A stretch of DNA of 35,374 nucleotides from Bacteroidota bacterium (GTDB lineage Bacteria; Bacteroidota; Bacteroidia; AKYH767-A; JABDAW01), in assembly GCA_013288905.1 (NCBI GenBank), contig JABDAW010000011.1:1-35374 (forward strand), given 5' to 3'. A program made the position numbers and the translations under genes. Below the pieces are notes generated by a model that searched no databases, had not been told where the DNA came from, and saw only the letters and a program-made list of their open reading frames with translations. Shown one piece after another: positions 9,441-35,374 of the stretch (position 1 is the first letter of the stretch; each line of letters starts with the position of its first letter).

Positions 9441-9468
9441 GGGAAAGAAAATTTAATTAATACGATTA

Positions 9469-9678
9469 TCTCGACAATCAACCCTTTGGTCTCGATAACC
9501 GGCTCCTTGATCTCGATAACCAGCCCCATGATCTCGATAATCAGCTCCTTGATCTCGATAATCAGCCCCACGATCTCGATAATCAGCCCCACGATCTCGA
9601 TAACCAGCCCCATGATCTCGATAACCTGCTCCATGATCTCGATAACCTGCTCCATGATCTCGATCTTTAGCTCCATGA
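9469..9678. repeat. Tandem array 1: ten 21-bp units (consensus TCTCGATAAYCAGCYCCATGA)
   Basis: TCTCGA occurs at 9469, 9490, 9511, 9532, 9553, 9574, 9595, 9616, 9637 and 9658, exactly every 21 bp. Confidence 0.95.
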
Positions 9679-9701
9679 TAACGATGTTGGAGCTAAAGAT
9701 C
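9662..9701. repeat. Inverted repeat terminating array 1
   Basis: gatctttagctcca (9662-9675) / tggagctaaagatc (9688-9701), perfect 14-bp arms, 12-nt loop. Confidence 0.85.
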
Positions 9702-16318: not shown

Positions 16319-16546
16319 TTTCATAAATCCGAAAGTAGTTGAGAATGTATTTTTGATGACTTTCAGATTTATGAAAGTGGCTGCGAATACATTCTTGATG
16401 ACTTTCATAAATCTGAAAATGGCTGCGAATACATTCTTGATGACTTTCATAAATCTGAAAGTGGCTGCGAATACATTCTTGAAGACTTTCAGATTTATGA
16501 AAGTCATCAAAACAAGAGTTTTGACCACTTTCAGATTTATGAAACC
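16319..16546. repeat. Tandem array 2: six 42-bp-spaced palindrome units
   Basis: TTTCA starts at 16319, 16361, 16403, 16445, 16487 and 16529; core is ctttca-(gattta or taaatc)-tgaaag plus linker tggctgcgaatacattcttgatga. Confidence 0.93.
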
Positions 16547-26925: not shown

Positions 26926-27035
26926 ATTATTTATTATTAGTTATACTTTTTAATTTATGGCGACAAAACTATAAAATAAATCTGTATTCCATCCGACCAT
27001 TCCCAAAAACTTCTCAAAATAGCTGCTATATATAA

Positions 27036-27251
27036 CTACCGTGTACCCACATCTTTTAAATTAAAAAAAGCAATAATGAATATTGAACAAGGAATTTTGA
27101 ATATTGATTTAGAAGGTTAAATTTAGAAGAAAAGAAGTCAGCATACAACTATGTTCATAGTTAACGAACTTCAATATTCAAAATTCCTTGTTCAATATTC
27201 ATTATTGTTTTCTTCCTTTTTCCTTAATAAAAAGATGTGGGTACACGGTAG
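27036..27251. mobile_element. MITE-like element B (216 bp)
   Basis: Same TIR as element A (ctaccgtgtacccacatctttt 27036-27057 / aaaagatgtgggtacacggtag 27230-27251); unrelated internal perfect 37-bp IR 27071-27107 / 27171-27207; flanks ctatatataa vs atatatagga match 7/10. Confidence 0.8.
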
Positions 27252-27402
27252 ATATATAGGAGTGTTTTTATTGAGGATAATCGGAAATTATTTTTCATGG
27301 GGCAAAGGTAAGCAATCAGTTCAGTATTAGAAAAACACATCCCTGGATGAATCCTTATAAAGTTTATTTCCTAATAGTATGACATATTGACAAAAATCTT
27401 AA

Positions 27403-28912: not shown

Positions 28913-29659
28913 TTATCCTAGAACATAAACTATGTTCGACAATTCGCTGATAAATTTATTGCCGTTTTTGGTATAAGCAATAATCATATAACCTACACCT
29001 GGTTTCAGGTTATTAAAAGTAATCGTTCTGCCTTTGCCTGTACAATTAATGGTATTAATTTCTGCAGCTGCTGCCAAAATAACTTTGAATTGCCCAAGAG
29101 TAATAGACGGAATAGGATCTGGAGTTACAGGAACAGTAACGGCTGGCATTTCTATCGCCATAAAAAAAGTTTCATCAGGAACATCGTCTCCATGTGGAGT
29201 AACATTTTTAACAGCTACTTTTCCGGTTCCAACATTTTCCGCCTCAATAACCGGAGTAACAGGAGTTCCTTTGGCGGTTTGAGTTAATTTTTGAGGAACC
29301 ATGTTCGCAAGCTTGATGTTCGTAGAAGCTTCCTCGGCAGTGCTGCGGTTAGCATCTGCATTCGCGATAACTTCAACCAGGTCAGCCAGACCATCCATCC
29401 AGATGACTCCCAGAGCCACTTTATCCTGAATAACATCATTATTGGCAGGCGAAGGAGCACCATTATGGACTAATATTGCGGTATTAATCGCACCGGCCAC
29501 AGCAGTTCCTTCAGTATAATAGGCAGTAGGAATGTTTGGATTAATGTACAATTCCGCTATAGAAGCTATGGCAATGGTTTCATTAATCAAATCTCTCATC
29601 ACCTTTCCGTTAGTGATGATGCTATAAGTTGTCCTTAATATTAAGATATATTTTATCAT
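28913..29659 (-). CDS. Uncharacterised protein with helical N-terminal region and FN3-like C-terminus
   Basis: 248 aa; C-term INTINCTGKGRTITFNNLKPGVGYMIIAYTKNGNKFISELSNIVYVLG. Alternative start at 29599 (MRDLINETIA...). Confidence 0.75.
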   Translation of the reverse strand: MIKYILILRTTYSIITNGKVMRDLINETIAIASIAELYINPNIPTAYYTEGTAVAGAINTAILVHNGAPSPANNDVIQDKVALGVIWMDGLADLVEVIANADANRSTAEEASTNIKLANMVPQKLTQTAKGTPVTPVIEAENVGTGKVAVKNVTPHGDDVPDETFFMAIEMPAVTVPVTPDPIPSITLGQFKVILAAAAEINTINCTGKGRTITFNNLKPGVGYMIIAYTKNGNKFISELSNIVYVLG

Positions 29660-29700: not shown

Positions 29701-29900
29701 TGTTGGTCGCCATTTAGTTTCTTTTGGTCGCCATTTAGTTTCTTTTGGTCGCCATTTAGTTTCTTTTGGTCACCATTTAGTTTCTTTTGGTCACCATTTA
29801 GTTTCTTTTGGTCACCATTTAGTTTCTTTTGGTCACCATTTAGTTTCTTTTGGTCGCCATTTAGTTTCTTTTGGTCGCCATTTAGTTTCTTTTGGTCGCT
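29701..29900. repeat. Tandem array 3: ten 21-bp units (TTTGGTCRCCATTTAGTTTCT)
   Basis: GGTC at 29705, 29726, 29747, 29768, 29789, 29810, 29831, 29852, 29873, 29894: exactly 21 bp apart. Confidence 0.95.
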
Positions 29901-34752: not shown

Positions 34753-34933
34753 ATTTGCTTTTTATTTAGCGGGCAAAATTATGAAATTATTGAAATTTAT
34801 AAAAGACAGGATATTCATTCCAGAAACTTCCTCATTGAATTCCAAATAGTGATTTGTTCAATTATTTTCTCATTGGCGACTTAAAACCATCAATATTTTT
34901 GTAATATGCCTTCATTGCGAATCTTAAGCAGGC

Positions 34934-35351
34934 TATACACGCGTCGGATGACCTCGTTGCCAAAACCGAAGAGGCTATACACGCGTCGGACGACCTCGTT
35001 GCCAAACTCAAACCGATTATACACGCGTCGGATGACCTCGTTGCCAAACTCAAACCGATTATACACGCGTCGGACGACCTCGTTGCCAAACTCAAACCGA
35101 TTATACACGCGTCGGACGACCTCGTTGCCAAAATTTATGCGATTATACACGTGTACAACCCACTTCTTGAATTTCATTAGTCGATATTACACGTGTATAA
35201 TCGGATAAATTTTCACAACAAGTGGGTTCTACACGTGTATAATCGCATAAATTTTGGCAACGAGGTCGTCCGACGCGTGTATAATCGGTTTGAGTTTGGC
35301 AACGAGGTCGTCCGACGCATGTATAGCCTCTTCGGTTTTGGCAACGAGGTC
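34934..35351. repeat. Tandem array 4: ten 42-bp units arranged as a large inverted repeat
   Basis: tatacacgcg-type motifs at 34934, 34976, 35018, 35060, 35102, 35144; inverted or palindromic motif at each further 42-bp step (35186, 35228, 35270, 35312); dyad at 35192/35193. Confidence 0.95.
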
Positions 35352-35374
35352 ATAATACATAAATTGAGCCTTAT

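Follow-up and report, generated by a model that had tools for sequence, protein, structure and literature searches.

The array at positions 34934–35351 belongs to a population of intergenic tandem arrays that is specific to its genus among the groups sampled, in which each array carries private units with a period of 21n bp, and it consists of near-identical inverted arms with a unit-sized difference in length. This population probably represents satellite-like intergenic arrays with local turnover of whole units on a 21-bp lattice, with a fold-back in the present array and a possible role as phased spacers. Private sequences combined with a common 21-bp step in approximately two-thirds of the longer gaps suggest that the period, and not the sequence, is kept.

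The window spans an entire contig (35374 bp) of the source genome (G000), a Bacteroidota MAG that is 58.7% complete and comprises 209 contigs. The genus sample contained 1.79 Mb of stretches from three species, namely, G000, G001 and G002, with one genome each; approximately one-third of the G000 assembly and one-quarter of the G002 assembly were read. Arrays were accepted at a TRF score of 100 (80–90 in some tests). Genes were called using a simple codon-score caller, which is a non-standard tool, and short open reading frames (ORFs) with most of their length in an array were discarded as spurious, thereby favouring an intergenic verdict. The features of the array and its left edge are as follows:

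34892–34933, + strand: decayed 42-bp unit in array phase at the left edge; 21/42 matches to the unit, where shuffles expect 9.7
34934–35143, + strand: left arm, five 42-bp units with spacers a-b-b-b-c; TRF 42 × 5.2, 91% match
34976–35059, + strand: two whole left-arm units (84 bp) that lack a right-arm partner, from the 84-bp gap in the arm-to-arm alignment; as the b units resemble one another, the gap could equally be placed elsewhere in the a-b-b-b run
35144–35187, + strand: central half-unit d, with core TATACACGTGTA
35188–35197, no strand: palindrome TACACGTGTA on the dyad centre 35192.5, from the dyad score; likely fold-back point
35198–35241, − strand: central half-unit e, the inverted counterpart of d; centre pairs at 36/49
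35242–35353, − strand: right arm, inverted units c', b' and a' (a' truncated), pairing at 42/42, 41/42 and 28/28

The array has a related centre, with five 42-bp units in forward orientation on one side and three reverse-complement units on the other. The forward units start at 34934, 34976, 35018, 35060 and 35102, and the reverse-complement units, read leftward, start at 35325 and 35283, with a third that is truncated at its outer end (35326–35353). The initial annotation had described a giant inverted repeat of 42-bp tandem units, which is borne out by the unit split, TRF and dyad pairing, and its spacer order (a-b-b-b-c, d/e, c'-b'-a') was recovered as claimed. On the dyad at 35192.5, where that annotation had aligned c with c' and b with b', 35102–35143 and 35242–35283 (c/c') pair at 42/42 positions and 35060–35101 and 35284–35325 (b/b') at 41/42; together, 83/84 positions are matched, and the arms are 98–99% identical. 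The central half-units, which had also been called related, pair across the dyad at 36/49 positions. The outer a units of the two arms match at 28/28 positions after a gap of exactly two units in the gapped alignment, in agreement with the two extra left-arm units (84 bp) reported before. The best dyad score in the array is 106, compared with at most 10 in 30 shuffles, thereby excluding chance. The single-strand fold, proposed as a check, is far more stable than that of shuffles (−182.8 kcal/mol vs −57.8 ± 4.3; z −28.8).

Landmarks at 35150.5, 35192.5 and 35234.5, and then at 42n outward, lie on a single lattice through the inversion. The 42-bp step is thus unbroken across the dyad, as previously stated, and no special joining rule is needed for the right arm, because duplication at a self-complementary core suffices. 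Palindromic cores recur every 42 bp; ACGCGT is nevertheless not found everywhere, one right-arm core being ACATGCGT, and the ACGCGT centre is offset by 1 bp from the ACACGTGT centre. The array differs from a CRISPR, with its identical repeats and unique spacers, in that the units are contiguous and the spacers a, b and c recur. Structured-RNA matches were absent in an Rfam search of the window. The right end of the array lies 21–23 bp short of the contig end, so its right flank is almost unseen, and 14 bp of flank alone were comparable for inverted-repeat ends (p 0.012).

While the DNA was being replicated or repaired, the array likely folded back within or close to its self-complementary core TACACGTGTA, and the resulting template switch would have copied the units a-b-c-d inversely to form the right arm, with the 42-bp lattice kept. 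As this core reads identically on both strands, the register would be preserved through the dyad. The left arm may later have acquired two b units, or the right arm may have lost them, and the centre may have diverged. Long perfect palindromes are unstable in bacteria, and central divergence would relieve this instability. The initial annotation had listed a fold-back duplication among its readings, and this one fits well with the arm identity, the difference of two whole units and the diverged centre; its interpretation overall is partly supported.

The array is one of many. Across the 1.79 Mb from three species, the period was exactly 21n bp in 276 of the 311 tandem arrays; their median length was 196 bp, and their densities were 101 (G000), 153 (G001) and 203 (G002) arrays per Mb. 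A 21n period was found in 264 of the 289 intergenic arrays (91%), and most of the others were no more than 1 bp away from it (approximately 8% of intergenic periods are off 21n, mostly by 1 bp). Gaps of 400–1000 bp held an array in 156 of 214 cases (73%), and gaps longer than 250 bp were twice as frequent in the genus as in its relatives. The arrays are located mid-spacer between genes, and the gap census in the three species revealed no clear gene-orientation preference. As tandem arrays of a 10–100-bp unit, they are minisatellites. Contigs of the genus often start or finish in arrays, which explains between-gene assembly breaks. Three further 21n arrays were found in the window:

9468–9679, + strand: second array, 21-bp unit, after rarA
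16331–16544, + strand: third array, 42/84-bp unit, with an internal inverted arm
29703–29899, + strand: fourth array, 21-bp unit × 9.4, 98% match

These three are unrelated in sequence to the array at 34934–35351, the repeat of which was absent from the rest of the assembly and from the 60 relatives searched. In an all-against-all comparison, unit similarity between arrays was close to that between shuffled units, with the exception of a few pairs. Two adjoining arrays with different units occupy one gap at L073 6671–7271, L067 1–287 and L069 14258–14627 in G002; the units of the adjoining arrays at L067 1–287 are related and lie in opposite orientation.

The population is confined to this genus among the groups sampled. 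No 21n array was found in 58 kb of G003, a member of the same family but of another genus. Relatives at the order and class levels (approximately 626 kb) contained one, and 80 named Bacteroidota loci (1.43 Mb) contained one of 2.0 copies; in total, two weak 21n arrays occurred in approximately 2.1 Mb outside the genus (the sister genus and other Bacteroidota). Intergenic autocorrelation peaks at 21, 42, 63, 84 and 105 were likewise seen in this genus alone.

The variation within arrays carries the signature of local turnover. Units within an array are approximately 88–90% alike, neighbours are the most similar and identity drops with unit distance. Unit-to-consensus identity is 0.89 at array edges and 0.93 inside, and in-phase 21-mers past the edge retain identities of 0.51, 0.35 and 0.31, compared with 0.26 at random. 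Edge decay, decayed units in phase and distance-dependent identity together point to a turnover like that of satellite DNA, in which whole units are duplicated in tandem or lost locally. In 42-bp arrays, mean identity at lag 21 is 52% (null, 26%), so this class consists mostly of dimers of 21-mers; the array at 34934–35351 is an exception, with halves that are 23% identical at that lag. Sub-periods of 7 bp or 10.5 bp were not observed inside units at the base level. Significant hairpin potential was found in approximately one-quarter of individual units. Significant inverted arms were detected in 88 of 280 arrays, compared with one in the null set of matched simulations, and the array at 34934–35351 ranked first of the 280 in dyad strength. 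Inverted arms elsewhere occur in dozens of arrays in three separate assemblies, most of them away from contig ends.

Several sites carry arrays in two species with different units. The spacer after rarA contains 21-bp arrays in both G000 (window 9468–9679) and G002 (L199 2888–3060), where both neighbouring genes are conserved, the units are unrelated and both arrays close with an inverted (fold-back) last unit; the G002 array is enclosed by a 16-bp inverted repeat, GAGATTATTTGCGCCA. Arrays are also present after nrdB and before prfA in G000 and G002, with units that differ between the species. The spacers of these species are generally diverged, and differences between units are therefore expected; the persistence of a 21-bp array is the notable part. 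Genome-wide synteny yielded 28 conserved adjacent gene pairs, so this positional conservation rests on few loci. In G001 and G002, the orthologous pdhB-type gene is adjoined by 21n arrays. As a separate observation (L260 7021–7256, L273 1109–1458, L274 and L275), G000 and G002 have 21n arrays and another gene after nrdB, whereas in G001 and G003 nrdB is immediately followed by nrdA, and nuoC by nuoD, with no arrays there; the nuoC–nuoD adjacency separates G000 and G002 from G001 and G003 in the same way as nrdB–nrdA. A global break-up of operons was rejected, because overall operon-like spacing is normal in spite of the different nuoD and nrdB neighbourhoods of G000 and G002.

A length of 21 bp corresponds to two turns of B-DNA, and with less assurance we suggest that this is why the array itself is retained at each locus. 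At a 21-bp step, any sequence would repeat its bends in phase and produce coherent curvature, and the arrays could thus act as sequence-independent phased spacers between genes. In a wedge model, the mean ratio of end-to-end distance to contour length was 0.80 at a 21-bp period, 0.97 when the period was increased by 5 bp and 0.92 in aperiodic shuffles. Real units were no more curved in this model than shuffled units at equal period; curvature would therefore be set by the step, whatever the sequence, and the model gives no selection signal for curvature. A/T steps inside units displayed no phasing of 10–11 bp. The arrays may plausibly serve as phased, curved spacers. A more ambitious proposal, that the genus keeps several hundred sequence-independent arrays on a strict 21-bp ruler as phased curved spacers, with some activity generating or policing them and with fold-back palindromes such as that at 34934–35351 as by-products or stages, is put forward tentatively as possible but not probable. 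The relation of the step to the helical repeat, the bending of this DNA and the maker or maintainer of the arrays are now directly testable questions.

Whole-unit slippage preserves any founding period, and the fixed value of 21 could therefore be inherited instead of selected. The main rival builds on this point: the arrays may be the cores of dispersed miniature inverted-repeat elements, descended from one ancestral 21-bp element that spread and whose copies diverged in concert, with the period inherited and no helical requirement. We consider this origin rather unlikely, although several flanking sequences favour it. A GC-rich 116-bp arm in G001 occurs in 12 copies in 110 kb (85–98% identical), and its inner end faces an array or a contig end in 12/12 copies. 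Inverted flanks occur on 24 of 237 array blocks, compared with 1.3 expected by chance, a family of approximately 150 bp recurs beside arrays in G002, and a few arrays have both units and flanks in common. However, flanking inverted repeats are present on approximately 10% of arrays only, and the G001 arms, up to 98% identical, surround unrelated arrays, which indicates that the core was not simply inherited with the arms. No transposase was found either. No intact RAYT (Y1 transposase) gene was found in the genus; the matches were partial, several had internal stops and all were weaker than the full-length matches of other genera. These results suggest that mobile elements are involved with some arrays without explaining most of them.

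REP/BIME sequences with RAYT were rejected as the machinery, given that no intact RAYT gene was found in the genus. Arrays made by reverse transcriptase were also rejected, because RVT_1 is not common to all carrier genomes (present in G001; not found in G000, at 58.7% completeness, or in G002, at 98%). The genus shows no expansion of HU-type proteins, and no trans factor was identified in that way. Sites of the G001 116-bp arm include L061 3–493, L056 3860–4205, L063 11488–12057 and L200 11–125 and 2769–2867. An interspersed inverted repeat of approximately 90 bp, up to 99% identical, occurs at window 27029–27258 and on another G000 contig (L044 13716–13880), where it adjoins an array. A multi-copy family of proteins of approximately 250 aa is represented at window 28913–29659 (− strand); the three members of the genus gave 6, 8 and 10 matches to it, G003 gave none, and no Pfam model reached its cut-off.

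A sequence-specific function in which the array is a multimeric binding scaffold or a cruciform regulator for the adjoining pyruvate dehydrogenase gene is improbable. The palindromic core every 42 bp, the very stable predicted hairpin and the location of the array 181 bp upstream of the pdhB-type start codon would suit such a function. The hundreds of arrays with unrelated sequences nonetheless speak against the scaffold reading of the initial annotation. Furthermore, the repeat does not occur elsewhere in the assembly or in the 60 relatives, unrelated arrays lie on the opposite side of the pdhB-type gene in G001 and G002, the arrays have no clear gene-orientation preference, and promoter- or terminator-like sites are no more frequent than by chance.

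It is very improbable that the arrays are short genes for heptapeptide-repeat proteins. A step of 21 bp corresponds to seven codons, stop-free frames cross many arrays on one or both strands, and open frames number 2.97 compared with approximately 2.7 in shuffled arrays. A coding origin was rejected, however, because other multiples of 3 are nearly absent (2 of 289 intergenic arrays), variable positions are not enriched at any codon phase (z −1.7) and the ORFs of the arrays tested had no family match over the cut-off; moreover, approximately 8% of periods break the frame. The heptapeptide-repeat ORFs in arrays are likely spurious gene calls. An assembly artefact, in the form of a chimeric inverted join at the contig end, is the least credible explanation: the MAG is fragmented, the array does stop approximately 21–23 bp before its contig runs out and genus contigs often begin or end in arrays, but the centres of the arms differ (36/49), the surplus of 84 bp amounts to exactly two units and many other arrays, from three assemblies, also have inverted arms, which makes a read chimera unlikely.

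Satellite-like turnover on a 21-bp lattice, the reading that we prefer, has partial parallels in known systems. Eukaryotic satellite DNA comprises monomers and higher-order repeats and exhibits edge decay, inversions and within-locus homogenisation. The genus arrays resemble it in their monomers and dimers, edge decay, inversions and local homogenisation, but are approximately 200 bp long and scattered between bacterial genes, each with a private monomer. Bacterial minisatellites are usually few, assorted in period or copies of one element. Literature on bacterial intergenic 21- or 42-bp arrays, and broader literature, yielded no description of unrelated arrays on a fixed 21-bp step.

The closest known system in the independence of units is the tandem repeats of archaeal Borg elements, in which each genome has many arrays with unrelated units, many of them intergenic, an origin from local sequence has been proposed and the hosts are nearly without such arrays (PMC9879509). 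The genus arrays are similarly independent, with unrelated units. Borg repeats, however, are perfect copies, A-rich and extrachromosomal, approximately half lie in ORFs, and only 14–38% of intergenic units have a length that is a multiple of three (PMC9879509), whereas 91% of the intergenic genus arrays are 21n, their units are approximately 88–90% identical, inverted arms are common and the contigs carry chromosomal housekeeping genes. BrickBuilt of Porphyromonas gingivalis, a minisatellite-containing MITE with 19 copies, one 23-nt unit and some terminal inverted repeats (PMC4596501), is also an intergenic tandem array in Bacteroidota, and the inverted flanks of approximately 10% of the genus arrays may be comparable to its ends; the genus arrays differ in that they number hundreds, have unrelated 21n units instead of a shared one and mostly lack common ends. 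The TAACTGA direct repeats of Beggiatoaceae form more than 100 intergenic sets in one genome, with a fixed heptamer that is often near start codons (PMC4679880), whereas the genus arrays have no fixed sequence and lie mid-spacer. A second repeat type was observed in G000 at L036 9659–9721, L053 9488–9582 and L045 11689–11930, where short arrays composed of motifs like GGTATAAG / TATACCTT have periods of 8, 15, 16, 23 and 31.
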